DNA of 26,139 nt from a virus. Location of the stretch: positions 1 through 26,139 of the IMG/VR virus record IMGVR_UViG_3300009537_000151. One strand, 5' to 3'. Of this stretch, positions 514 through 23,594 are shown piece after piece. The position numbers and the translations under genes are program-made. The notes under the pieces were generated by a model. That model was not told the DNA's origin and did no database searches. It saw only the letters and a list, made by a program, of their open reading frames with translations. Position 1 is the stretch's first letter, and each line of letters opens with the position of its first letter.

Positions 514-1005
514 CTAATAGTTCAATATGCAATAATCAGGTTGAATCGTCACGGTAATGGTTACCAACTCATTATCCGCTACCCAACTTAGATCTTTGAA
601 GCTAACTTGTGTAATCTGTGATCCCTTCAAGATCCACTCTTCAACCTTATCACCAACTGGCCCTAAAACGTGAATAGTTAAGTCCTTCTTATAGAACTCC
701 AAGTATCCATCGCGTCCAGTAACAGATTCGTGATGAAGTCGTACCCATTCCATGACAGCCTGCGCACCAGAAGGTACAATGGCGTCATATAACTCCAGTT
801 CCATCGTACTCCATATGGTACGTCCCTTCACAAACCGAACAACGTTAATGTGAGGAACAGAAACAGCTTCCTGCTTTAAAGACGGGCGGTTGGTCTTTCG
901 TATCATATACGAAGGAACACCGTCCATAAGTAACATAAACCGATTTTGCATCTTCGGTTCAAACGCGGTAAAGAACAGCTCTTGTTCACTAACTAGATTA
1001 GCCAT
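514..1005 (-). CDS. 19: Tail tube protein (gp19-like)
   Basis: This 163-residue protein should polymerise into the inner tube of the contractile tail through which DNA passes. It begins MANLVSEQELFFTAFEPKMQ and has the usual tube layout: N-terminal region, 'NRFMLLMDGVPSYMIRKTNRP', a central 'ELYDAIVPSGAQAVMEWVR' helix, and a C-terminal 'KDLSW' followed by beta strands. These patterns and the length match the T4 gp19 family (163 residues in T4). The ribosome binding site GGAGCC lies about 8 nt before ATG. It sits downstream of the sheath gene as in T4, but a homing endonuclease gene now separates the two. A strong terminator follows it. Confidence 0.93.
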   Translation of the reverse strand: MANLVSEQELFFTAFEPKMQNRFMLLMDGVPSYMIRKTNRPSLKQEAVSVPHINVVRFVKGRTIWSTMELELYDAIVPSGAQAVMEWVRLHHESVTGRDGYLEFYKKDLTIHVLGPVGDKVEEWILKGSQITQVSFKDLSWVADNELVTITVTIQPDYCILNY

Positions 1006-1116: not shown

Positions 1117-2628
1117 TTAAAATACATATCTGTTGTTTCCACAATCCCACAACCGGTCATATCCATTGTCTTTCATATTTTCCCACTCCGTTTTGTTGGA
1201 ATCAAATATCGGCAATATATGAGACAATTTGTGCTTTTGGAATTTAATTCTAGAGTGTATAGTATTGGACGCCGACACATATCTATAGTTGGGTGGTGTT
1301 TCACCATCAAAAATCATCCCCAATTTAAGATACGACTTTCCAGAAAAAAATCTCTTATCCGAATACGTTACTACAGAATTGGGAGTGTGTGTTTTAATAA
1401 AATGTTTCCACATCTTAGATAGACCCCCCGTAACCGTAACCCCACATTTGGTTGCAACCCTAATTATTTCATACTCTATGCTTTTATTATATCGTGACCT
1501 TGATAGCGTTAATATTGACACTAATTCATCATTGTATTGTAATCCGATACGAATGGATGCCGGCGCTGCCCCTTGTAGATGATGTTGCTGTAAAAACTCC
1601 GTAGTATCTTTGTTGGAAACTGTACCCAATATCGAGCACGATCTAGCCGAAATCCTTTTACTTTTTCCTAATAGTGTCCCCAATATGGATTTTATAATTT
1701 CTGGGGAATCATACCACTCGCAATCCCATATATGTAATAATTTATATCCAATGGACTCACACAATTTAGTTTTTTCCAAATGATATCCTTTATATTTTCC
1801 CTTCAATTCAGTATGCCAATATACGCCATTCAACTCTATAGCTATTTTATGATCCGGAAGTACAATATCCAATTCTTTAGGCCCAATTAATATCCTATCA
1901 CCCTGAACAATGTTTGAAATATGTAATTCATCACGAATATATTGAATTATCTCTACCTCAAATTTAGATTTGGGATAGCACACAGTACATCGGGGAAACT
2001 TTCCATTATCTATACTACTGTAGAATGTATTCTGGCATTTCTTACATTGAAATTCATATTTGGTGTCACTTACACCGGTATATTCACTAATAGTAAACTT
2101 TGGATCATAGTAGGGTCTAATTCTATTCACTACCTTATCAAAAAACATCCTTCGAAACATATCGGTCTGACTATAATTGGATGCTCCATATATCTGCAGC
2201 ATAGTATTACAATGTTTTTCCATATTATTATAATTTGAATTACCATATCGTTCAAATTTAGTTTTTTGTGCTTTTTTTGGATTTACATATTTTGCATTAC
2301 CATACCGTTTCAATTTTGTTTGTTTTGTTTTTATTTTAAATTCATCTAGTGCAAAGTATGTTGAAACTCCATATTTGGAGCGTAATACCTCTGCGGATCT
2401 AGCTGTTCTGTGTTCCACATTCTTTGGAATTTTCTGATATTGTACCCTACAATCTGACGAGCAAAATCGTTTAGTAACTCTTTTACGCACAACAAACACC
2501 TTCTTACATAACTCACACGAGCGTTCTTCTCTACTGTTTTGTTTACGTTGTATATCCCTACATACTAATGAACACGTTCTTTTATTGGTAACAGGAACCC
2601 CACACACCAAACATACACCGGTAATCAT
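1117..2628 (-). CDS. Vsr-like (EDxHD) homing endonuclease with zinc fingers and C-terminal GNAT/Mom-like domain
   Basis: Probably a free-standing homing endonuclease. An in-frame GTG exists at 2658, but AAAGGA followed by ATG at 2628 marks the likelier start (503 residues). Numbering from that ATG: two zinc-finger-like segments (CLVC...CSLVC, about 6-23; CELC...CSSDC, about 38-60); four repeats built on a Lys/Arg/Ile-Tyr-Gly core (about 80-155), probably DNA-contacting modules; a CxxC zinc ribbon (about 195-218); then the nuclease core with KELDIVLPDHKIAIELNGVY followed by WH, a downstream YH, and LLHIWDCEW (about 220-305). That core matches the Vsr-related EDxHD homing enzymes. The C-terminal part (about 340-475) has NHLQG-like, R-I-G-L, GG-S-K and VVTYSDKRF motifs resembling a GNAT/Mom fold. 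It is a paralogue of the gene at 8946-10568 and is inserted between the sheath and tube genes. Confidence 0.82.
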   Translation of the reverse strand: MITGVCLVCGVPVTNKRTCSLVCRDIQRKQNSREERSCELCKKVFVVRKRVTKRFCSSDCRVQYQKIPKNVEHRTARSAEVLRSKYGVSTYFALDEFKIKTKQTKLKRYGNAKYVNPKKAQKTKFERYGNSNYNNMEKHCNTMLQIYGASNYSQTDMFRRMFFDKVVNRIRPYYDPKFTISEYTGVSDTKYEFQCKKCQNTFYSSIDNGKFPRCTVCYPKSKFEVEIIQYIRDELHISNIVQGDRILIGPKELDIVLPDHKIAIELNGVYWHTELKGKYKGYHLEKTKLCESIGYKLLHIWDCEWYDSPEIIKSILGTLLGKSKRISARSCSILGTVSNKDTTEFLQQHHLQGAAPASIRIGLQYNDELVSILTLSRSRYNKSIEYEIIRVATKCGVTVTGGLSKMWKHFIKTHTPNSVVTYSDKRFFSGKSYLKLGMIFDGETPPNYRYVSASNTIHSRIKFQKHKLSHILPIFDSNKTEWENMKDNGYDRLWDCGNNRYVF

Positions 2629-2664
2629 ATATTTTTGTCCTTTATTTATATCACCCACGAATAC

Positions 2665-2770: not shown

Positions 2771-5098
2771 TTATGCGGTGGGGAACGTTGCCCCTGTCGA
2801 CATAATGTTAAAGTCGAGTAGAATGAATTCTGCTGTCTTCGTTGGTTGTAAGAACAGTTGTCCGTACATGATATTACGATCAATAATGTCCGGTGTGTTG
2901 TTTGTCTCATCCATGATAACGCGGAACGAGTACAAACCAAACCGTTCTTGCACACTACTGAGGTATGGGTTAACGATACCCAAGAATCTGTTGCGGGTAG
3001 CCTCAACAGTTTGCTCGAAGACCAAGAATCTAGACGCGCTAGCTATAAACTTCTTGACTGCGATCAACAGACGGCGGACGTTAACACGATCCAACGCCGA
3101 TGCCTGCTTTTGTAAGGTCTTTTGTCCCCACACCGAGATACCCTGACCGCTAAATGTTGCAATTGGGTTGACATTTCCTTCATATAGAATGTCTCTCTGT
3201 GGGCCGCTAAGCTTAGAACGAACCCCGACAGCGCCTGGGATTCCACCTCTATTCAAACCAGCAGGTGCGAACCACACTTCCGCAATGTTATCACTATATG
3301 CGTAAACCTCGGGAAGTACGACTGACGGTGGTGCCCATATGATCTTGTTGCTGTTCGTATCTAGTACCCGAACCCACGGATAGTATGCCGCCGCGTAGTT
3401 CGTATCTAGTGTCGTTGCGGTATTAACTACAGAATCAACACTTGCAGTTAACTGTTCAAGATCAATTAAGCAGAAGGCGTCTCCACGATCTTCACACAAA
3501 TCAACTGCAGATTGTGCGACATATGAGTGTAGGGAATAAATTACACCAGGAACAACTAATAGATTGAAATCAAAGTTGTCTGGATTTGCAATTCCATCCA
3601 ATGCCTTCTTATATGCCAACGTGCCACTTGCGGTTGACGTTGACAAATCAAATCCTTGGGTATTCGTTGGAACTATATCTCCACCCACATACTTCGCAAT
3701 GTTTGGTGCCATTCCGTCAAATCCACCTTGGAATGGTACGCTAAACCGACGATAGGTAATGTGTGCCGGGTTTGACAACGAAATTGGATTTGTACCATCA
3801 AATTCATCACTGGACAGGTCTTCTAGCGAGAATGCACTACCAACGGTGGTTGCATTCAACGGAATTGGAGCTAAGAAACTCCAGTTCTTAGTGTTTGTAC
3901 TAGTAAAGTCATACCCATAATGCTTCTTACTATCTGCTACGGACGTTGCGGTGTATCCTTCAACCGATCCACTGCGCCAACGTGACGTAATGTACTTGGG
4001 TGCCAACACAGTTCCGGCGGCCGCAACTACTGGAGCTGATAATGCCGCAAATCCAAACGGAACAGCCTCCGATGGAAGACCCAAAATGTCATCGGTGATT
4101 TCAACACGAACATATTGACTGTTGTTTCTGTAATCACCCTGATATGAAATTTCATTGGTAACAGTATCCGTAAACGGAGCGCTATTTCCAATTCTGCGTG
4201 CTACGAAGTTTGGACTGTTCGGGTCAAGCGTTAGATTTTCCCATTGTTCCAAAATTATTGGCTTTGCATCTGTATCGTTTGCCTGACGGATCAATACACC
4301 GAATGAACCGAATGATCCAGACTCAGCTGCGGGCTTAATACCCACAACACTGATCTTAACGTCACGATTTGCTGCTACACCATCACTTAACGTGTGCACC
4401 TTGAACAAATCAAATGTACTTCCACCGATAGTCTGTGATTGAATCCATGGTGTACTTGCATTAGAATATGCACTTCCACTATGGTTAACTGCGGTACTTG
4501 ATGTTACAAACAACAATGAACTACTCGCTGATGCGCTAACATATGCTTCTGGAAAGAGTGCATACACATATGCATTCTTTGAATTCTTTGGGTCTGTTCC
4601 AAACGCATTCAAGAAATACGCAGAACTTCCAGAATCAGCGGTTAAACCAGAAACTAAAACTCCTGTATTTGTTGATCCAGAAATTGTAAGTTCAAAATTG
4701 GTTGGGCCGCCACTTGACGATACTTCTGTTAGGCTAGTAGCTGCGATGTTTGGGTGGAATGCTGCTAGTAAATATTGTCCTCCCGATCCTGTTGCGTATA
4801 ATAGTGCGGACTGTCTTGAACTTCCCTGATATCCGCTCAATCCCAATACTCTAACAACAGTTGCTACGCCAGCTTCCTGTAAATAGTTCATAACGGAATA
4901 CCCTAGATACGAATTATCCGTAGGTACACCAAACCTATTTTGATACTCTGTTTGGGAACGAACTATGGTCGGAATAAACGCCGGACCTTTAGTTGTTGCA
5001 CCAATAAAAGCGCCCCCGATTTCTGAAATTCCTTGCGTAAGGAATGACAAATCGCGTTCACGCGTAAATACTCCGGGACTAACTATTCTTTCTGCCAT
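2771..5098 (-). CDS. 18: Contractile tail sheath protein (gp18-like)
   Basis: This 775-residue protein should form the outer sheath that contracts to drive the tube through the host envelope. It opens MAERIVSPGVFTRERDLSFL, the typical sheath N-terminus with 'SPGV...E' and then 'IGGAFIGATTKGPA'. The C-terminal domain (about 640-775) has the conserved sheath pattern: 'VNVRRLLIAVKKFI', 'FEQ', 'NRFLGIVNPYL' and 'IMDETNNTPDIIDRN', ending in 'GQLFLQPTKTAEFILLDFN'. T4 gp18 is 659 residues, so this one is longer; the extra length lies in Ser/Ala/Thr-rich central segments (about 100-420), probably surface domains. The ribosome binding site GGAGAG is about 6 nt before ATG. It is closely coupled to the small gene upstream and ends at a terminator. 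Confidence 0.96.
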   Translation of the reverse strand: MAERIVSPGVFTRERDLSFLTQGISEIGGAFIGATTKGPAFIPTIVRSQTEYQNRFGVPTDNSYLGYSVMNYLQEAGVATVVRVLGLSGYQGSSRQSALLYATGSGGQYLLAAFHPNIAATSLTEVSSSGGPTNFELTISGSTNTGVLVSGLTADSGSSAYFLNAFGTDPKNSKNAYVYALFPEAYVSASASSSLLFVTSSTAVNHSGSAYSNASTPWIQSQTIGGSTFDLFKVHTLSDGVAANRDVKISVVGIKPAAESGSFGSFGVLIRQANDTDAKPIILEQWENLTLDPNSPNFVARRIGNSAPFTDTVTNEISYQGDYRNNSQYVRVEITDDILGLPSEAVPFGFAALSAPVVAAAGTVLAPKYITSRWRSGSVEGYTATSVADSKKHYGYDFTSTNTKNWSFLAPIPLNATTVGSAFSLEDLSSDEFDGTNPISLSNPAHITYRRFSVPFQGGFDGMAPNIAKYVGGDIVPTNTQGFDLSTSTASGTLAYKKALDGIANPDNFDFNLLVVPGVIYSLHSYVAQSAVDLCEDRGDAFCLIDLEQLTASVDSVVNTATTLDTNYAAAYYPWVRVLDTNSNKIIWAPPSVVLPEVYAYSDNIAEVWFAPAGLNRGGIPGAVGVRSKLSGPQRDILYEGNVNPIATFSGQGISVWGQKTLQKQASALDRVNVRRLLIAVKKFIASASRFLVFEQTVEATRNRFLGIVNPYLSSVQERFGLYSFRVIMDETNNTPDIIDRNIMYGQLFLQPTKTAEFILLDFNIMSTGATFPTA

Positions 5099-6798: not shown

Positions 6799-7956
6799 TT
6801 AACCTATATAGAATGGGATGGGCACTTTATTAAAAATTTCTTGCATAGCTATTGCGTTTTCTTTGTGTCGTTCCAACTGCGCTTTCAATCCCACCTGTTC
6901 AAGCGTTGCTTGTAGTTCTTTAATCAATGATTCTTTTTCCGCAGTTGCCTCTCTCCGTAAAATTTCTCCATCCATCATTATTTCTGCACCTGGGATTGGA
7001 ATCCTTTGATATTTGGAACGAATAATTCCAAGTAATTCTTTTGCAGTTGCCAACGTATATTTATAAACCCACATACGTCCAATAGAATTGATGTTATTGT
7101 ATGGAATAAATCTGTATGGTATATTAGAATAGTCCGAAACTCGCCCACTCCCAGATGTAAACATGCCAGATTGCTTTTCGTCTACAACAACATAATCGAA
7201 CCATATAATCTTATCTCGACTAAACGCTGGAGTGAACCTAATTATATTATTACTGATTTGGAATGAAAACGCAGATTTTCTCAATTGATCATTTATTTCA
7301 ATAGCCTGTAATCGTAACAAATCCTCGTATGCAGGCATCATCACGAATGTTACTGCTGGAGAATACCCATCAAATCCAAACTCCGACATCAAATTAGTTA
7401 AACCAAGTCCTGTAGTTGCGAATGGATCATAATAACGAGCTATGGCAGGTGCCATTTGATGATACACCTTTCGTATTTCAATGGCACTACCACTTTCATA
7501 TACATCTGCCCATAATGTCTTTAAATCATATTGAGTAGTCGCTGAACTTGCTGATATATGTCCTCTCTTAACTGTAACATCGCCTCCGCTGTCCGCCTCC
7601 ACTCCATATACCGATGATAGTCGTACAATTTGTGGAAGTGCTGTTTTTACAACATTTTGCCCACCCAGAAATGACGATGTTAACATTCCTTGCGCAGATA
7701 ACATATGTTCCCGTGCATTGAACTGATTAACTTGTGCTCCGTATGTTACTACGGCCTCTTCAAAACACGTATATATGTTTTTATCCGTTAATTCTACGTC
7801 CAATACCGGATATCCAAGACGATGCGCAACAAAATTAGCCACTTTGGGCGCATCATATTGAAATTCTGTTTCTGCATCAAAAAATCCAAAGGGAGTCAAC
7901 CCAACAGGGTTCCCGGGATCACCCTCATAAGTTATTGCTTCCGCGGTAATTGCCAT
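6799..7956 (-). CDS. 13: Neck protein (gp13-like)
   Basis: This 385-residue structural protein is likely the head-completion/neck protein equivalent to T4 gp13 (309 residues). It has 'GLTPFGFFDAETEFQYDAPK', then 'VAHRLGYPVLDVELTDKNIY' and 'FEEAVVTYGAQVNQFNAREH', a pattern I associate with gp13-like proteins of environmental T4-type phages. Its C-terminal 80 residues are helical and charged (MDGEILRREATAEKESLIKE onwards), ending in 'PIPFYIG'. It leads the gp13-gp14-gp15 group and has an upstream TATTTAT motif after a terminator. The start is ATG at 7956, and no strong Shine-Dalgarno sequence is visible before it. Confidence 0.83.
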   Translation of the reverse strand: MAITAEAITYEGDPGNPVGLTPFGFFDAETEFQYDAPKVANFVAHRLGYPVLDVELTDKNIYTCFEEAVVTYGAQVNQFNAREHMLSAQGMLTSSFLGGQNVVKTALPQIVRLSSVYGVEADSGGDVTVKRGHISASSATTQYDLKTLWADVYESGSAIEIRKVYHQMAPAIARYYDPFATTGLGLTNLMSEFGFDGYSPAVTFVMMPAYEDLLRLQAIEINDQLRKSAFSFQISNNIIRFTPAFSRDKIIWFDYVVVDEKQSGMFTSGSGRVSDYSNIPYRFIPYNNINSIGRMWVYKYTLATAKELLGIIRSKYQRIPIPGAEIMMDGEILRREATAEKESLIKELQATLEQVGLKAQLERHKENAIAMQEIFNKVPIPFYIG

Positions 7957-8945: not shown

Positions 8946-10568
8946 TTAAATGGTCGAATTATTGAATGTTGTCCATTTATATTTAAAACTGCCGCAATCC
9001 CATATTCTATTGAATCCCATAATCTTCATATTTTCCCATTCTGTCAATTGGGGATCGCCCCCCAATAACACCACTTTTTTCTTTGTATAATTAAATCTAT
9101 GATATCTTCTATCACTAGAATTCGCTTTATAATACCAGTAATTTGGATTAGTTACTCCAACATAAGAAAACCCTAGTGTATTATACAGATTATTTATTGG
9201 GGACGACCAACGACGATCTGCATATGAGACGACGGCGTGGGGAGCATACGTTCGTATAAAATAGGAAAACAATTTACTAGCACCACCCACACATAAGACA
9301 TCACCTTTAACTGCAAATCTACTCAACTCATATACATTAGGAGTTTTCACTTTAATCCCACGGGATGCATTTTGGTGAGAAAACGTCATAACCGATATAA
9401 TTTCTTCACCATAATACAATCCAACACGAATTGGTGAGGAATCGGTTCCCTGTAGGTGGTTACTATTAAGAAACTCGGCGCATTCTTTAAAATTCACCTC
9501 TCTCACCTGACATTGTCGTGCTGCAATCTTTATAGACGAAGAAATATGTAATCGTTGCGCTATTTTATCAAGAACCATCTTTCTATAGTTTTTCCATTCG
9601 TCCTCAAATATATGAATGAGTTGTATACCCATAGAGTCACATTCCGTAGTTTTGGAAATATGATACATTCTATCCTTTCCCTGTAATTCACCATGCCAAT
9701 ACAACCCATTAAATTCTACCGCAACATTGTGGTCCGGAAAATATAAATCTAGTTCCTTTTTACTTGGCAATATGCTTCTACTGTTGTGTATTATTGTAAT
9801 ATTTGGAGATAGTTCTCTAATATGCTCTATAATCTCCAACTCTATTTCCGATCTGTGTCTTACATTGCACTTTGGGCAATAAAAATACCACTTGTGAAAT
9901 TGATCCGATACGGTATGGCACGCATTGCATTGAAATTTATAGTAGGGTGGGGATTCTCCATGTAAATATTCCAACATGGTAATGTTAAATTTAGCAGACA
10001 TCCTCTCAATAAAATCCAAGGTTGTTGCTTCCAATTTACGCTTTAAGACATCATCAGCATGCATTGGAAGTTTTTTTCCGGTCAAGCGAATTTGATAAAT
10101 CCGCTCTAACGCCGATCTGCGCATCTTATCCCGAGTGCTGGATTTAATTGGGGTGTTATACCTAGGATTTCCAGATCCTCTACTGTTGTGTCCGGGTAGA
10201 TATTTCCGTATAACATATGGTTTATATGTTACAATGTTAATTGGAGTATTGCATCCACATTTACACATTGGAATTTTATTATTTAACACATGCTGGGTAA
10301 CATAGGTTAATTTATCGATTCCGTGCTTTGCTTTCAAATGCCACGAAAACCCCTTAGCCGTATATTTGTCTGTGGATTTACACAATAAACACTTTGTATC
10401 CAATGGATCTTTATTTCTAATCCTATTAACTCTAAACTCCCCATACAGTTTAACATACTCCTCAGTACTCATGGAATGAGAATCTCGTAAATGTGTATAC
10501 ATCCCCACCGTTTTGTATGGATTATTACATAATTTACATACTATAGTATTAACTGTCCGTTTTCCCAT
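8946..10568 (-). CDS. Vsr-like (EDxHD) homing endonuclease with zinc fingers and C-terminal GNAT/Mom-like domain
   Basis: This 540-residue paralogue of the gene at 1117-2628 is probably a free-standing homing endonuclease. Domains in order: two C2H2-like fingers (CKLC...H26...H31; C60-LLC63...H77...H82), a Cys-rich CKCGC module with a NUMOD-like 'YLPGHNSRGSGNPRY' tail (about 100-137), a zinc ribbon (C214xxC217, C231xxC234), and the nuclease core (about 238-330) with E272-L-D274, E285-F-N-G, W-H292, Y-H303 and LIHIFEDEW. A C-terminal domain (about 360-500) follows, with NSNHLQG, IRVGLYYGEEIISVMTF, YELSRFAV, GGASKL, VVSYADRRW and LYNTLGF. That motif order resembles GNAT-fold Mom proteins. The last 30 residues (TEWENMKIMGFNRIWDCGSF) are conserved in both paralogues. 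The gene has its own promoter motif and a GGGGA ribosome binding site. It lies between the capsid and neck genes. Confidence 0.84.
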   Translation of the reverse strand: MGKRTVNTIVCKLCNNPYKTVGMYTHLRDSHSMSTEEYVKLYGEFRVNRIRNKDPLDTKCLLCKSTDKYTAKGFSWHLKAKHGIDKLTYVTQHVLNNKIPMCKCGCNTPINIVTYKPYVIRKYLPGHNSRGSGNPRYNTPIKSSTRDKMRRSALERIYQIRLTGKKLPMHADDVLKRKLEATTLDFIERMSAKFNITMLEYLHGESPPYYKFQCNACHTVSDQFHKWYFYCPKCNVRHRSEIELEIIEHIRELSPNITIIHNSRSILPSKKELDLYFPDHNVAVEFNGLYWHGELQGKDRMYHISKTTECDSMGIQLIHIFEDEWKNYRKMVLDKIAQRLHISSSIKIAARQCQVREVNFKECAEFLNSNHLQGTDSSPIRVGLYYGEEIISVMTFSHQNASRGIKVKTPNVYELSRFAVKGDVLCVGGASKLFSYFIRTYAPHAVVSYADRRWSSPINNLYNTLGFSYVGVTNPNYWYYKANSSDRRYHRFNYTKKKVVLLGGDPQLTEWENMKIMGFNRIWDCGSFKYKWTTFNNSTI

Positions 10569-10652: not shown

Positions 10653-10684
10653 AACAAAAAAGGAGAGATTTCTCTCTCCTTTCT
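10653..10684 (-). terminator. Rho-independent terminator after HNH gene (repeat copy 1)
   Basis: AGGAGAGA (10661-10668) pairs with TCTCTCCT (10673-10680), extended by A/T pairs, with a 4-nt loop and a minus-strand T6 tail. It is identical over 32 nt to the capsid-gene terminator at 11404-11435. Confidence 0.92.
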
Positions 10685-10696
10685 ATTTTACTTGTT
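10653..10696. repeat. Direct repeat copy 1 flanking HNH cassette
   Basis: The first 32 nt are identical to 11404-11435, and similarity continues through CTTGTT (10691-10696) with a 2-nt gap. The copy includes the last codons (Asn-Lys) and the TAA stop (10688-10690) of the HNH gene. The partner copy is the capsid 3' region at 11404-11449. Confidence 0.85.
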
Positions 10697-11347
10697 GCTT
10701 TTTAGTAAATTATCCTTCCACGGTAACATAATCAAATTCTCAATATGCCCTATATCCTGTGGAGAGATTCCGTTCTTCCAACCGGCATCTATAGAAACAA
10801 TATGATCCAACTGATATGCTCCATCAACTCCACATCTCCCGCGGGAATCCCAATTTGGAAGGCCTGTTAATTCCTGTTGATACGTTATTTTCCATACTTC
10901 AGCTTTATATTGTTTTTTCTTGGGGTATCGTTGAACATATTCTTTCCATGATGAAAACCCAGCTTTAGTTGCTCGCATTTTCTTTTTATGCTCTTCTGTT
11001 ATAACCGATCCCCACACCTTATTATATTTGTATGCCGAACAAGAATTACACAATGCTCCTGTTCTATTGGCTCTGTTAACAGAATATTTAGAACAATATT
11101 GTAATTCTGTTTTACAATTCGGACAATTTCGTGTAAACGGTAAAAACTTACCCACCTTTGTATTAGATTTTCTATTTGGATAGGTTCTGCCCGATAAAGT
11201 TACACTAATTTTAGAAGCACTTTCGGGGGTTACTCGTACCGCACAATCACTACAATTACCTGCATTTTGCATAGCACGTAGATAATTACGCTTGCTACTG
11301 TATATTAATACCCGTTCGCATTCTGGACAATTCCGTTGGTGTGGCAT
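10688..11347 (-). CDS. Free-standing HNH endonuclease with duplicated zinc ribbon
   Basis: This is a probable HNH homing endonuclease of 219 residues. An in-frame ATG at 11365 exists, but GGAG lies 7 nt before ATG at 11347, and the promoter motif spacing (about 27 nt) fits that start. The N-terminal half holds two zinc ribbons with identical spacing, CPEC-x21-CSDC (about 7-35) and CPNC-x21-CNSC (about 75-103), evidently an internal duplication. A basic NUMOD3-like stretch (ITEEHKKKMRATKAGFSSW) follows. The HNH core at the C-terminus reads YQLDHIVSID, then G-W-K-N-G-I-S-P and HIENLIMLPWKDNLLKSNK, giving the D-H, N-L and final N residues of the fold. The gene sits just after the capsid gene, bracketed by copies of its terminator. 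Confidence 0.88.
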   Translation of the reverse strand: MPHQRNCPECERVLIYSSKRNYLRAMQNAGNCSDCAVRVTPESASKISVTLSGRTYPNRKSNTKVGKFLPFTRNCPNCKTELQYCSKYSVNRANRTGALCNSCSAYKYNKVWGSVITEEHKKKMRATKAGFSSWKEYVQRYPKKKQYKAEVWKITYQQELTGLPNWDSRGRCGVDGAYQLDHIVSIDAGWKNGISPQDIGHIENLIMLPWKDNLLKSNK

Positions 11348-11374
11348 AGAAATACTCCATATCATCCCACCTAC

Positions 11375-11403: not shown

Positions 11404-11435
11404 AACAAAAAAGGAGAGATTTCTCTCTCCTTTCT
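11404..11435 (-). terminator. Rho-independent terminator after major capsid gene (repeat copy 2)
   Basis: It is the same 8-bp AGGAGAGA/TCTCTCCT hairpin, extended by A/T pairs, with a minus-strand T6 tail as at 10653-10684. It starts about 20 nt past the capsid stop codon at 11455. Confidence 0.92.
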
Positions 11436-11454: not shown

Positions 11455-13017
11455 TTAAAGACGACCAAGACCCTCGATGACGATCTTCGCGAAGAATTCT
11501 GGACGAACTACCTTCTTAGCGTATCGAGTCATAACACCGCGTCTCGGGGTGAAATTATCCGGATCGTATACTAACGGAGTCATGATAAGCGGAATGTACG
11601 GTGCGTACACAGCGCCTGTCTCCAAGAAGTTAGACCCACGATAACCCATCACAATGATGTTTTCCGTCATATAAGGGTTCTTATAGATTTGGAAACGGTT
11701 CTGGAATGAACCAACCTTTGTGATACCAGCCGAGAATTCCATCTTATCACCATCCGTTGCGGCGAAGAAGCCGGGGATAGTTTCAATAATGGTTGCTACG
11801 GTTGGTGAGCAAACTGCCCAATTTGCACCACCACGCATTGTAAGCTGATGGATACGATTGGACACCTTCTGCATCTTCTGCCCAAGGGTCTGATACCATG
11901 TCATGTTAGTCCATGCCGTACCAGAATTGGTCGAGGCAACGAACGTACCAGCCACAGAATCGTATTCCTTACCAATTTCAGTTGACCAGAAATCAGTTGT
12001 TTGTGCGTTGACATTCAACATATCAAGGATTTCAAGATCAATTTCAACTGAAATGTAATCACTTAACATTGCCGTAAGCTCGGCCTCTGCGTCTACCGAG
12101 TGGTAGGCGTTCAAGTCCTGTGCTAGTTCGGGTGACCAAACTGCCTTCAACTTACGAGTCTTCGCTACGATTGGTTCCGAACGAAGTTCAAGGTTGATTT
12201 CAGGAATGTTAAGATTTGTCTGCGAACCGTCACGATCTTCAAAATCGCCACGGGTAGTATCAGATGGTTGTCGTACAAAATCCACTGATGTAATCGTTCC
12301 ACCAAGAGGTGCGACGAATTGTACTGCGGTTCCAGCTGCGTTCAACTTGGTATGCACCTGTAGGGTGTTTGCACCAAAGTCAACAACCGATCCACTCGGT
12401 AGGAAAACGCGTGCTGCACTTGCGTCCGGACGAGTTAGTGAGGACAAGTTGACTGAATATAGACCAAGCGACGCAGTTGCGATCCCTGTAAAATCCACAT
12501 CAGCAGCACTTGCAGTGCTGGTTGCGGTTACAGAAAGACCGGTTTCACTTGCATCATTGATTGAATATCCAAAACGACCTGCACCATAAAATCCACCGCG
12601 GGGAAGTGTACCCGAACCACTGGTAATACCATACACCGATTGACCAGATGTTTGGTTATTTGCAGTGTTACCGTACTTGTAATCCATATAGAATACAAGA
12701 CCAGCCGGAAGATTCAAAGGCTGTACTGATACGAAATTCTTACTGGCAATTTGTCCGAAAACCTTGCGAACAAGGGGAAGCGCGACACCAGCCCAGTTTT
12801 CACCGGCCGCACCGGCCGAGTTGGTTTGTGAGGATTCTTGAAGAAGCTGTGTTGACTGGTTCTCAAGAAGAACCGCCATGCCTTGCCGTTCATTGCCGGA
12901 AAGACCTTCAAGAAGTCCCGATTCATCCCACTTGATAGGCAGTTTACGGGTTTCTTCCGTAATACGCGCGTGGGCGGAACTTGCTTCATTGATAAATGAG
13001 GATACATCTGCTGACAT
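11455..13017 (-). CDS. 23: Major capsid protein precursor (gp23-like)
   Basis: This 520-residue HK97-fold major head protein precursor matches the T4 gp23 family (521 residues). The N-terminal about 61 residues form a helical propeptide ending in 'LLENQSTQLLQESSQTNS'; Leu-Gln-Glu61|Ser62 fits the T4 protease rule (L/I-x-E before the cut), close to Glu65 in T4. The mature part has 'WAGVALPLVRKVFGQIASKN', 'VSVQPLNLPAGLVFYMDYKY', 'EINLELRSEPIVAKTRKLKA', 'WSPELAQDLNAYH', then 'VYAPYIPLIMTPLVYDPDNF' and 'RRGVMTRYAKKVVRPEFF'. All are gp23 hallmarks. A strong AAGGAG ribosome binding site precedes ATG. It follows the scaffold gene by 22 nt and ends at a strong terminator, as expected for a highly expressed gene. 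Confidence 0.97.
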   Translation of the reverse strand: MSADVSSFINEASSAHARITEETRKLPIKWDESGLLEGLSGNERQGMAVLLENQSTQLLQESSQTNSAGAAGENWAGVALPLVRKVFGQIASKNFVSVQPLNLPAGLVFYMDYKYGNTANNQTSGQSVYGITSGSGTLPRGGFYGAGRFGYSINDASETGLSVTATSTASAADVDFTGIATASLGLYSVNLSSLTRPDASAARVFLPSGSVVDFGANTLQVHTKLNAAGTAVQFVAPLGGTITSVDFVRQPSDTTRGDFEDRDGSQTNLNIPEINLELRSEPIVAKTRKLKAVWSPELAQDLNAYHSVDAEAELTAMLSDYISVEIDLEILDMLNVNAQTTDFWSTEIGKEYDSVAGTFVASTNSGTAWTNMTWYQTLGQKMQKVSNRIHQLTMRGGANWAVCSPTVATIIETIPGFFAATDGDKMEFSAGITKVGSFQNRFQIYKNPYMTENIIVMGYRGSNFLETGAVYAPYIPLIMTPLVYDPDNFTPRRGVMTRYAKKVVRPEFFAKIVIEGLGRL

Positions 13018-19460: not shown

Positions 19461-22400
19461 CTACAGTTCTAACTCTAAAATGTTGTCTTCATTCAAGTAA
19501 TCTGCTTCTTTCGGTTCTGTTCTTGGCTTACCAAATTTATTCGCATTTTCCAAGGTGGTTACCAAATCCTTAAACTCCCGAACCCGTGTGGGATGTGGAT
19601 CGCGGTGAAGCGCCTTCCTATTTTCTTTGTTTCCCAATGGATCTCTTCCTCCGGGATGACGATCTGTTCCGAACAATCGACGCTCTGCGGGCCGACCGAG
19701 CTTTCCATTTTCTCCAATTTCTGGTTCAATGACAATTTCATCATCATCTTCATCAGAAGTTGTGGTTGCCGGTTCTTCGGGAGCTCCGCCGTCCATTCCG
19801 GGTTGCGGCGGTGGTTGTTGTGCCTGCATTAGAATCTTCTGCTCCATCGCCTGCAGATTTGCCAAGAACTCCGCATCTTTCTTCACATCATCCTCAACCT
19901 CCTCCCGTTCACGATCTGTCAACTCTAGAATATTTTCATAGATCCATTTGCGTGATATGAACTTGGATGTTTGTAGATCGTTCGCCAGAGATATCTTATC
20001 TTTCCACAATGCCACCTTTTCCTGCTCATAGATTGTAGATGGATTGGTAAGCGCCAAATCAAATTCTACAAGCTTCTCATCTCGGAACCCCTGAACATAC
20101 AAATGGACAATGGCAATCTTAGTCAGTTCCGAAATTAGAATTCGTTGGATTCTTTCAATTGTTCGAGCAAACCGAACATCTTGCGCTGATAAAGTAGCTT
20201 TACCTGAATTGTGAATAAATATACCAGCAGAAACCCCAAAATTATGATATTTGGAAACTCTAATATCACACGTATTTATAAGCTCTTCTACACGCTCAAC
20301 AGATTTAATCTTATGATTTTTCATATTACTTAAATTATTTATGAAAGTAACATTGTCGTGTGATAATGGCATATGCTCAATAACAAAATTGCGCTTGTTA
20401 ATATCAAATGATTTAAATACTCTATTAAGAGTTCTTCTCGTAATAGATAATTTATTTTCTAATTCTGCGAAAGATTTAGATTCCCCTGCATATCCCATCA
20501 AATCTTTCAAATTAATTTCAAAAAACTTACAATTATATCTACGATCTGCTACATGATATACGTCTGTGCATTCTCGACTACAGCATTTTTGAGTTGATCG
20601 TACCGGTGTTACATAAAATTCATTATCACAGACTAAACAAACTTTGATTTGTCCTGATCTACTACCTTTATTAGAAGGGCCGTTTTCCCGAACCCACGCA
20701 CCTAGCCTATGTCCGGAAAGTAACCCACCTTTTTTGCCAGCTTCCACTAGATGTTTTCTATATTCGGGGTCGTTCATTCTTCGACTTATAGCTTCTGTGC
20801 TATTTAAAGTTTTTTCAATCAGGTTTTGATGAAATTTTCTATGTTCCCACCAATTCATAGAACAATCAAGATTATCAGGATAATTATTTTTCTTATCAAA
20901 ATCCATGTGATGAACCACCAATCCACTTCCACGTTCTATTAAATTATAATGTTCCGCAACCAGCCTATGTACATCTTGATACTCATCTTTAATCGGACGA
21001 TATACAGTTGTATATCCTTTTTTGGTTTTGGTATTTGTTTTGTCCAAATACAACGGCATTACTGAATCCCCGTTTATTAAATCTTGCGCCTCTTTCCATG
21101 ATCCATCCCGCATCATAAATCTATGGTCCGGCGTACACGTAATAGATTCGTCATTATCCAAAATAACTCGTACAACCTTGGCATTTTTTCTAGTATAGCC
21201 CGCCCATTCTATTTCACCGGGTACAACATCTAACGTTTCTGGATCAATTGAATAAACATAATGTTTAATTCCCCTCTCATAATCAGAAATAATATCCTTA
21301 ACCGACATAGATTGCCCGTTAAGTAATTCTATTTTAGTTTCTGGGTGGATACAAACGTCCTCTTCATAACCCAAGAATGAGTTTGGCACCTTAAATGCGG
21401 CTAACAACTTTTTGCGAAGATATTCTATGTCTTCGATTGCGTTGTATTGCAGCCCCTGTAGATTAGTAACATCCGTAGAAGATCCCTTACCACGAACTGG
21501 AAAGTAAAAATCTTCCAATATGTTTTGCATATTGTAACGTAAATTATACTCACCTGTCTTTTCATCAATCAACGGAATCTTCTTAGTCTTATCCATCAGC
21601 CGTTGCATATACTGTTCAACTTCTGCCGGTGGAATGTTTCCAACATCAATGATGAACTTACGTTTGTCTGGAGCACGCATAATTCTGTGAATTAACATTG
21701 CATCTTCCATCAACATCAATTGCTTATGAACTCTACGAGCTCCTTCTAACATACTCCGTCCATACGGTAAGAAATTTGAATCACTCAATAATCTAAAATG
21801 AGCAATTTCAAAGTTTTCAAATTCTTTTTTCCCAAACATATTCATGTAATCGTTTTCAATCTTAAACTTCACACTAAACGGGTTTTGTGGATCATCACCC
21901 TCTATACGGTATGTTTCATATATGGAAAGAGGAATAACGTTTGTTACCCCATACTCCGGATCAATATGAAGATACATGAACAAATCCCCATATTTTGCCA
22001 TATTACGGGTCCAGGGCCATAGATTGAACTCTACATTCAAAATATCATAGAACAGATTGTTTAAGATTTCTTGAATATTTTCATGGGGGGACGTAACGTT
22101 AAGAATTCGTCCGAATTCATTTTGCACGGTACATTCGTCCGCGTAAATGTCTAATACCGAATTCGAAATAATAATGCCCTGTTCAATGGCGAAATTTTCA
22201 AAGTGATCTACTGATAAATCATATACGTCCATGACCACGCCGGTGCGCCGAACTTCTACAACTTGGTGGTTGGTATACGAATATGACTCTTTATACGACG
22301 ACCATGATGTGTATCCAGCTTCTCGCAACCGGCGGTGAATAAATTGGCATATGTGGCGACGGGCCAATTTTAATGATTCAAACTTTTCGTGTTGTGCAAA

Positions 22401-23594
22401 CGAAGTAAGAGTATCATAACCTATACCGGTGGCTAAAATCCATTCATTTGTAATTGAATTATTATATCGGCCGTTCTCAACTCCCGTTCTAACAACACGC
22501 TCTCTAAAAGACGGATCATTCGCATACTTTAACTTCATAGTCATTGAATGATGTGCCTTTTTCCACATTTTCCATTCTGGATTAGACCACAGTTGTTTAG
22601 CGTGTATAGAAAATATCTGTGCCATTTTTGTGGCGTAGTCGATGTCAGTAACCCATCGAGTCTTATTGAGATGTGTTGCGTGAGCAGACATAAATGCATG
22701 TCCTTCATCACTAGCCCGCCACCTCTGCAGCCCAGCCCGTGCTTTCGATCTATACACCGGATCCTTCCATAATTCAGATGACGTTTTCCCACGCTTTCTA
22801 TTTGTTATATCAGATATTCCATGCAATTTCAAATGTTCAATCGGGTCCATTATTTGAAGATTCGATGTACGATTATCGTATTTTTTATGATTGATGTGAT
22901 GTACATTCTTTCCCGTCAAATCTTGGCCCAGTACGTGTTCAGACACATATCGGTGTGCGGGAATATATTGACCGTTCGGAATTCGAACGTGCATATATTC
23001 CCGGTTCTTATATTCAAATGGCATAATACGTGAACCGGATGTCAAATTCTGAGCTTCCTCGTAAGTGCCATCAATTAACATTACTCTATGATTTGGAGTA
23101 CACGAAAATATTTCGCCGTTATCAAGTACAATTTCTAGTACCTCGGACGTTCCAGTTTTACGAGGGTGGTGTGCCTGCCCAATAACATATTTACACGTTG
23201 TTGTGTCCCACGCCCAAACCTCAAATGTATTGCCGGGTACCCAACTATCGGATAATTCCCTGATCGTGCGCGGGCCCTCTAACGTCATAATGCGTGTATC
23301 TCCGGAAATACAGGCCACAATAGGATCACGATCCATAATATCGTAATCTCTAAACATCTGTAGGCGGCCTGCACCAACTGCCGCATTCATGTCATATCGG
23401 CCAGTGGGGTTATACCCTTGTTGACCGGACATAAATACTCGACGATACTTGTCCATAAGTCCGCGAGCGCCATATCCCTGTATACTATCTGTATCTACTA
23501 CCTTAAGTTGATTTTTTCCAACAATACGAACTACTGCTTGTGAAGAAAATAATCTCTTAAGTCTAGCGTATAGTGATCGTTCATCGTCTGCCAT
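19461..23594 (-). CDS. 20: Portal protein precursor with two inteins (gp20-like)
   Basis: The 1377-residue precursor should splice to a 611-residue portal, the dodecameric head vertex through which DNA is packaged (T4 gp20 is 524 residues). The exteins are residues 1-94, 479-747 and 1130-1377. Portal signatures include 'FRDYDIMDRDPIVA' joined to 'SVLDIYADECT', 'FNLWPWTRNMAKYGDLFMYL', 'HFRLLSDSNFLPYGRSMLEG', 'MEDAMLIHRIMRAPDKRKFI', 'KVPNSFLGYEEDV' joined to 'SGKATLSAQDVRFARTIERI'. Each junction falls in a conserved portal stretch and restores it exactly. The extein-3 tail (about 1270-1377) is Gln/Pro- and Asp/Glu-rich and probably flexible. AGGTGGG precedes ATG at 23594. The gene lies between the small genes after terminase and the protease group. 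Confidence 0.95.
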   Translation of the reverse strand: MADDERSLYARLKRLFSSQAVVRIVGKNQLKVVDTDSIQGYGARGLMDKYRRVFMSGQQGYNPTGRYDMNAAVGAGRLQMFRDYDIMDRDPIVACISGDTRIMTLEGPRTIRELSDSWVPGNTFEVWAWDTTTCKYVIGQAHHPRKTGTSEVLEIVLDNGEIFSCTPNHRVMLIDGTYEEAQNLTSGSRIMPFEYKNREYMHVRIPNGQYIPAHRYVSEHVLGQDLTGKNVHHINHKKYDNRTSNLQIMDPIEHLKLHGISDITNRKRGKTSSELWKDPVYRSKARAGLQRWRASDEGHAFMSAHATHLNKTRWVTDIDYATKMAQIFSIHAKQLWSNPEWKMWKKAHHSMTMKLKYANDPSFRERVVRTGVENGRYNNSITNEWILATGIGYDTLTSFAQHEKFESLKLARRHICQFIHRRLREAGYTSWSSYKESYSYTNHQVVEVRRTGVVMDVYDLSVDHFENFAIEQGIIISNSVLDIYADECTVQNEFGRILNVTSPHENIQEILNNLFYDILNVEFNLWPWTRNMAKYGDLFMYLHIDPEYGVTNVIPLSIYETYRIEGDDPQNPFSVKFKIENDYMNMFGKKEFENFEIAHFRLLSDSNFLPYGRSMLEGARRVHKQLMLMEDAMLIHRIMRAPDKRKFIIDVGNIPPAEVEQYMQRLMDKTKKIPLIDEKTGEYNLRYNMQNILEDFYFPVRGKGSSTDVTNLQGLQYNAIEDIEYLRKKLLAAFKVPNSFLGYEEDVCIHPETKIELLNGQSMSVKDIISDYERGIKHYVYSIDPETLDVVPGEIEWAGYTRKNAKVVRVILDNDESITCTPDHRFMMRDGSWKEAQDLINGDSVMPLYLDKTNTKTKKGYTTVYRPIKDEYQDVHRLVAEHYNLIERGSGLVVHHMDFDKKNNYPDNLDCSMNWWEHRKFHQNLIEKTLNSTEAISRRMNDPEYRKHLVEAGKKGGLLSGHRLGAWVRENGPSNKGSRSGQIKVCLVCDNEFYVTPVRSTQKCCSRECTDVYHVADRRYNCKFFEINLKDLMGYAGESKSFAELENKLSITRRTLNRVFKSFDINKRNFVIEHMPLSHDNVTFINNLSNMKNHKIKSVERVEELINTCDIRVSKYHNFGVSAGIFIHNSGKATLSAQDVRFARTIERIQRILISELTKIAIVHLYVQGFRDEKLVEFDLALTNPSTIYEQEKVALWKDKISLANDLQTSKFISRKWIYENILELTDREREEVEDDVKKDAEFLANLQAMEQKILMQAQQPPPQPGMDGGAPEEPATTTSDEDDDEIVIEPEIGENGKLGRPAERRLFGTDRHPGGRDPLGNKENRKALHRDPHPTRVREFKDLVTTLENANKFGKPRTEPKEADYLNEDNILELEL
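20208..21353 (-). mobile_element. Intein 2 in portal, HNH type (382 residues)
   Basis: Portal residues 748-1129. Block A is CIHPETKIELLNG (Cys1), block B is ITCTPDHRFMM with the T-x-x-H, and the end is YHNFGVSAGIFIHN followed by Ser+1, a canonical His-Asn/Ser splice junction. The middle carries an HNH nuclease (VVHHMDFDKKNNYPDNLDC, then WWEHRKFH, about 894-922). A four-cysteine zinc finger (CLVC...CCSREC, about 986-1009) and a NUMOD1-like helix-turn-helix segment (SFAELENKLSITRRTLNRVF, about 1041-1060) follow. All splicing residues are present, so it should be active. Confidence 0.93.
22161..23312 (-). mobile_element. Intein 1 in portal, HNH type (384 residues)
   Basis: Portal residues 95-478. 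Block A is CISGDTRIMTLEG (Cys1), block B is IFSCTPNHRVML, block F is VYDLSVDHFENFAI, and the end is GIIISN followed by Ser+1. The usual His before the terminal Asn is replaced by Ser477. The HNH nuclease is GKNVHHINHKKYDNRTSNLQ followed by HLKLHG (about 228-259). It is followed by basic, Trp-rich repeats resembling NUMOD-type DNA-binding modules (about 270-370). Splicing seems likely because removal restores the portal frame and motif. Confidence 0.92.

Follow-up and report, generated by a model that had tools for sequence, protein, structure and literature searches.

A Hef-like homing endonuclease with a C-terminal Mom-type GNAT domain lies beside the major capsid gene in a T4-like virus fragment

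The window analyzed here is the whole of positions 1–26,139 of IMG/VR record IMGVR_UViG_3300009537_000151, a 26-kb virus fragment rather than a full genome. Its genes make up a T4-like structural set (terminase, portal, prohead protease, g23, sheath, and tube). On the 3′ side of the major capsid gene, g23, lies HEG1, and a second protein of the same kind, HEG2, which is 38% identical to HEG1 over 338 aa (HEG1 residues 196–530), is found among the tail genes (Table 1). Between g23 and HEG1 lies a further ORF of 225 aa, which, judging from the motif at its end (DHI..ENL..LP..N..K, read by eye), is a probable further free-standing nuclease. This ORF is bracketed by two copies of the g23 terminator hairpin, as if it had been inserted together with one of them. 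Elsewhere in the window, the portal (gp20) ORF (19461–23594, minus strand, 1377 aa) contains two apparent inteins, at residues about 96–476 and 748–1130; related portals align straight across both of these points.

Table 1. Features of the window and nuclease–methyltransferase-like fusions at related loci (L numbers denote compared loci)
Feature	Position	Strand	Remarks
HEG1, Hef-like homing endonuclease with C-terminal Mom-type GNAT domain	8946..10568	-	540 aa, ATG
HEG1 N-terminal zinc-finger module, residues 1-186	10011..10568	-	close relatives all at g23 3′ end
HEG1 second zinc ribbon, C214/C217/C231/C234	9867..9929	-	cysteines >90% conserved
HEG1 EDxHD/Vsr-type nuclease, residues about 236-341	9546..9863	-	E272, D274, E285, H292, E324
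HEG1 Mom/GNAT core, residues about 346-494	9087..9533	-	H371, E414, R417, G428, S431, D451, Y462
HEG1 terminal tail TEWENM...RIWDCG, residues about 495-531	8976..9086	-	
g23 major capsid protein, flanking HEG1, presumed HEG1 target locus	11455..13017	-	PF07068, E 1.5e-75
Head-tail adaptor-like gene	6799..7956	-	directly after g23 in HEG-free relatives
225-aa ORF, zinc fingers and HNH/EndoVII-like end, between g23 and HEG1	10688..11365	-	weak PHROG HNH match
g23 terminator hairpin, first copy	11404..11434	-	
Exact 31-bp copy of g23 terminator hairpin, after 225-aa ORF	10653..10683	-	
HEG2, second Hef–Mom protein, between tail sheath and tail tube	1117..2658	-	513 aa, likely ATG start 2628
Tail sheath, flanking HEG2	2771..5098	-	PF04984
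Tail tube, other flank of HEG2	514..1005	-	phrog_4542, E 7e-21
Nuclease–methyltransferase-like fusions, about 590-644 aa	L328:3903-5837, L333:4827-6746, L336:3202-4974, L337:4992-6764		g23 3′ side

The HEG1 ORF had originally been predicted to join an EDxHD nuclease to a Mom/GNAT-like domain, and the motifs cited in that prediction are all present in it (E272-L-D274, E285-F-N-G, W291-H292, LIHIFEDEW, NHLQG, YELSRFAV, GGASKL, VVSYADRRW, and LYNTLGF). Both domain calls stood up to tests of profile, fold, and conserved residues. HEG1 falls in PHROG 3339, “homing endonuclease” (E 4e-103), and the 408 phage records that match it are mostly annotated as homing endonucleases. For the nuclease, the family profile matches the homing endonuclease I-Bth0305I (PDB 3r3p, E 1.8e-6), and in 82 sequences D274 and H292 are invariant, with E272, E285, and E324 each kept in 81. 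The nuclease fold and catalytic pattern are thus common to HEG1 and the EDxHD homing endonucleases, among them I-Bth0305I, a group I intron-encoded enzyme that, unlike HEG1, has no Mom domain. HEG1 is confirmed as a free-standing Hef-like homing endonuclease composed of N-terminal zinc fingers, an EDxHD nuclease, and a C-terminal GNAT domain, and its tail (TEWENM..WDCG) belongs to the homing endonuclease family, not to Mom.

Assignment of the C-terminal domain to the Mom family draws on profiles and on fold. The isolated domain scores 29.0 bits against Pfam Mom (PF25680, cut-off 27.1), around which the scores of its relatives scatter, and matches the Mom-like PHROG 1384 (E 1e-8). When a profile of 64 C-domains was aligned by hhalign with a profile of 10 Mom proteins, the probability was 97.7% (E 2e-12), compared with 1.5% or less in five column-shuffled controls, which rule out a chance resemblance of motifs. 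An AlphaFold model based on a multiple alignment has pLDDT values mostly about 95 in this domain and the strand and helix order of a GNAT. In a Foldseek search with the whole HEG1 model, the top PDB matches were the two chains of Mu Mom (8bv8_A/B, E 1.2e-6, TM by target 0.54–0.57), with ordinary GNATs ranked below. Because profile scores and fold match agree, the Mom/GNAT call was right. A full-length phmmer search of PDB with HEG1 gave nothing significant over the Mom part, and a single-sequence AlphaFold model of the C-domain (pLDDT 30) was set aside. The fold search also returned a weak match to a protein of Klosneuvirus, a giant virus (A0A1V0SKS9, E 1.4e-6, TM by target 0.23).

The likeness to Mu Mom extends to individual residues: H58, E108, R111, D149, and Y159 of Mom (241-aa numbering) correspond to H371, E414, R417, D451, and Y462 of HEG1, and counterparts are present in both window copies. 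Across 143 C-domains, H371 is invariant, R417 and Y462 are each kept in 142, and D451 is kept in 128; among 197 columns ranked by conservation, H371 stands at 1, R417 at 4, Y462 at 5, and D451 at 21. Equally invariant (143/143) is G428, in a glycine loop that is a candidate acyl-CoA pyrophosphate loop and matches the canonical motif (Q/R-x-x-G-x-G/A) in part, with variation at the Q/R and at the later glycine/alanine position. HEG1 differs from Mu Mom in its fusion to a nuclease, in its C-terminal tail, and in the residue after the His. The Tyr found there in Mom (Mu Y59, invariant in 10 Moms) is absent from all 143 Hef relatives, 132 of which have Ile or Leu at this position (L372 in HEG1). 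According to the title of PDB 8bv8, the S124A mutant of Mom is inactive. The hhalign and MAFFT alignments and loop counting place the counterpart of S124 in three different registers, of which S431, a Ser in 105 of the 143 domains, is likeliest. The position of D451 is Asn in 11 of the 143, among them the copies of coliphage G8 and of Acinetobacter phage Abraxas and the T4-like clade that holds the copy between nrdA and nrdB; in HEG1, the Asp is intact. In that T4-like clade (L251:3182–4774; L252:1859–3286), the helix before this position is also shortened, yet purifying selection on the domain persists in the one pair compared (L252/L307, w 0.10). Counts of synonymous and non-synonymous changes over 11 related pairs, not all of them independent, put pN/pS at 0.19 in the Mom core, compared with 0.17 in the nuclease and 0.23 in the N-terminal region. 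The value for the core indicates that the Mom domain is being maintained and is not decaying.

Close relatives lack HEG1 and HEG2 at the same gene junctions, a pattern of sporadic insertion and empty sites. In relatives whose g23 is 70–82% identical, the adaptor gene often comes directly after g23: among 106 loci, some of them overlapping contigs, 85 have less than 300 bp between the two genes (median 140 bp), compared with 3499 bp in the window. The gap between sheath and tube is short in 111 of 111 related loci, compared with 1766 bp in the window. HEG1 and HEG2 behave as mobile elements. In distant phages, Hef genes are found on the g23 side (between g23 and g24 in Abraxas; after g23 in LR756508) and on the sheath side (between sheath and tube in LIMEstone1; after the sheath gene in PA5oct and LR756508). 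Of the loci fetched with the C-domain, 70 of 80 have a g23, sheath, or tube gene, which lies within 500 bp of the Hef ORF in 49 of 68. Five divergent Hef-like genes are present in PA5oct. The coliphage G8 homologue sits between nrdA and nrdB. A review reports that U5 hef cleaves nrdB (PMC2988022), and from its locus and name, U5 Hef would be the same protein as that of G8.

Several variants were also seen among these loci. LR756508, a 484-kb phage record and the source of locus L328, holds at least six Hef–Mom copies, six of them full, with one after g23 and one after a tail sheath gene; an apparent full-length HEG1 homologue in this record (84% coverage) proved to be two adjacent ORFs merged and was not counted as one. 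Within the g23-to-adaptor gap of one related locus (L112:7539–8174), the sole Hef sequence is a C-domain ORF that lacks both the nuclease and an upstream start and is probably a remnant. Two other ORFs (L038 at 3490 and L294 at 2280) have the zinc fingers and the nuclease and finish with a short WDCG/YDCG sequence, without the Mom core. In a quick nuclease tree, resolution was too poor for Mom-domain gains and losses to be counted.

The N-terminal module of HEG1 (residues 1–186) is rare, with its sole match among phage records in LR756508. A search of viral contigs with this module alone gave 11 strong loci in six independent lineages, several of the compared IMG/VR loci being near copies. At all 11 of them, and in LR756508, the ORF with the module is found at the 3′ end of a g23 homologue; at the 11 loci, it follows g23 by 26–209 bp, is the next gene but one, or converges with g23. 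Of 50 loci with weaker matches to the module, about 7 have a g23 in the vicinity, and the difference in linkage gives a Fisher p of 1e-5 by lineage, an approximate value for groups that were defined after the search.

At some of these loci (L329–L332, L335, and L336), the N-terminal module is joined, as in HEG1, to a nuclease and Mom domain; at others (L328, L333, and L337), it is joined to a Vsr-type nuclease and a methyltransferase-like domain. The modules of the latter are about 35% identical to that of HEG1, and the insertion locus is the same. A second gene at L336 is of the same nuclease–methyltransferase type, with a weak match to the module. All four of these proteins differ from HEG1 in having a variant of the Vsr-type nuclease and a methyltransferase-like domain instead of Mom. 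Assignment as a putative methyltransferase draws on two motifs (DPC[AS]GFGGR and FTSIPY[FY]) and on homology to an annotated N4-cytosine methylase of a Vibrio phage, which alone of the two passes the Pfam N6_N4_Mtase cut-off. A PDB profile search with the domain gave weak matches only, and a scan of viral contigs with a whole 644-aa fusion gave none, unlike the N-module alignment, which did find relatives. At L336 (3202–6353), the methyltransferase-type protein and a Mom-type protein follow each other behind g23. At L335 (2833–4932), the parts are reordered within one 700-aa ORF, with the nuclease and Mom domain first and the g23-linked zinc-finger module C-terminal. The occurrence of two unrelated domains of DNA-modification type, in comparable proteins at one locus, is best explained by DNA modification as their common function. 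On sequence grounds, this swap favors a DNA-modifying, probably self-protecting, role, and it supports, short of proof, the original suggestion that HEG1 could protect its own allele.

Much of this architecture has precedent. HEG1 shares its length class, zinc fingers, EDxHD-type nuclease, Mom-like C-domain, WDCG tail, and free-standing position beside conserved phage genes with the Hef-like proteins of T4-like, Campylobacter, and jumbo phages (U5 Hef; PHROG 3339/559), to which the window copies are about 30–45% identical. It differs from these known proteins in the rarity of its N-terminal module. The original prediction knew of no functional description of a nuclease–Mom fusion, a statement overtaken by Iyer et al. 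2021 (PMC7824862), who described jumbo-phage proteins that join a Mom domain to a REase-fold nuclease and predicted for them both modification and restriction; the fusion itself is thus already known. The same authors credit PA5oct with “five momylating enzymes” (PMC7824862), which, going by the number, are almost certainly its five Hef-like genes. Some GenBank entries are already named “putative nuclease/acetyltransferase.” Iyer et al. read the jumbo-phage fusions as restriction-modification, whereas position here points to homing. What is new here is the linkage of the N-terminal module to g23 and the methyltransferase version at the same locus; a search of the open-access literature, with most subscription papers outside its scope, found no paper on either.

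We infer that HEG1, settled close to the 3′ end of g23, is a homing endonuclease gene. The zinc fingers of the N-terminal module would direct its product to the g23 locus, the EDxHD nuclease would cut that locus in co-infecting phages without HEG1, and recombination repair would copy HEG1 into the cut genome. The Mom-type GNAT would modify DNA, probably at adenine as Mom does, marking the element's own DNA and so lessening self-cleavage. Position and homology support the recognition, cleavage, and gene-copying part well; self-protection we infer. Taken whole, this explanation of homing with self-marking seems to us modestly probable. One counterpoint to self-marking is that in a co-infected cell modification in trans would shield the rival genome too.

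Other counterpoints lead toward a different reading, in which a Mom-like fold was recruited as a DNA-binding or structural part and modification was lost, or kept in some lineages only. Loss of the Mom Tyr (L372), the Asp-to-Asn change and shortened helix 3 in a T4-like clade whose domain is nonetheless still under selection, the incomplete conservation of Ser at position 431, and the existence of relatives without the Mom core would all fit it. However, H371, R417, and Y462 are conserved beyond most structural residues, and mere DNA binding does not predict an unrelated methyltransferase-like domain in the place of Mom; we consider this reading unlikely, although it is the strongest of the rivals.

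The prediction made for the jumbo-phage fusions (PMC7824862), together with the anti-restriction modification carried out by Mu Mom, would suggest instead a phage-borne restriction-modification system, in which Mom would shield the entire genome of the phage and the nuclease would be turned on host DNA or on superinfecting DNA. Such a system accords poorly with genomes that carry several divergent copies (five in PA5oct, six full ones in LR756508), with the reoccupation of particular junctions by genes that close relatives lack, with an N-terminal module linked to one locus, and with a homologue at the locus of the Hef reported to cut nrdB, and we regard it as improbable. Finally, other phage GNATs act on proteins, and the GNAT fold and invariant glycine loop would suit acylation of a non-DNA target, be it a nucleotide or a protein of the host or phage. 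This seems very improbable, as the nearest family by both sequence and fold is Mom and the domain that takes its place in other fusions looks like a DNA methylase.

These results unite Hef-like homing endonucleases and “momylating” restriction-modification fusions, the subjects of two separate literatures, in one protein family, and they offer a testable reason for a selfish nuclease to keep a DNA-modifying domain under purifying selection. We tentatively suggest, as a possibility somewhat short of even, a group of self-marking homing endonucleases in which a locus-recognizing module and a nuclease are combined with either a Mom GNAT or an N4/N6-type methyltransferase for discrimination between self and non-self alleles. 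If true, such proteins would make up a class intermediate between homing and restriction-modification enzymes, and the ones seen here would be specialized for g23. Should the domain mark DNA, it would offer free-standing homing genes, which lie outside their own cleavage site, a chemical means of sparing the genome that carries them, and local base modifications could be present, unrecognized, around the capsid and tail genes of phages.
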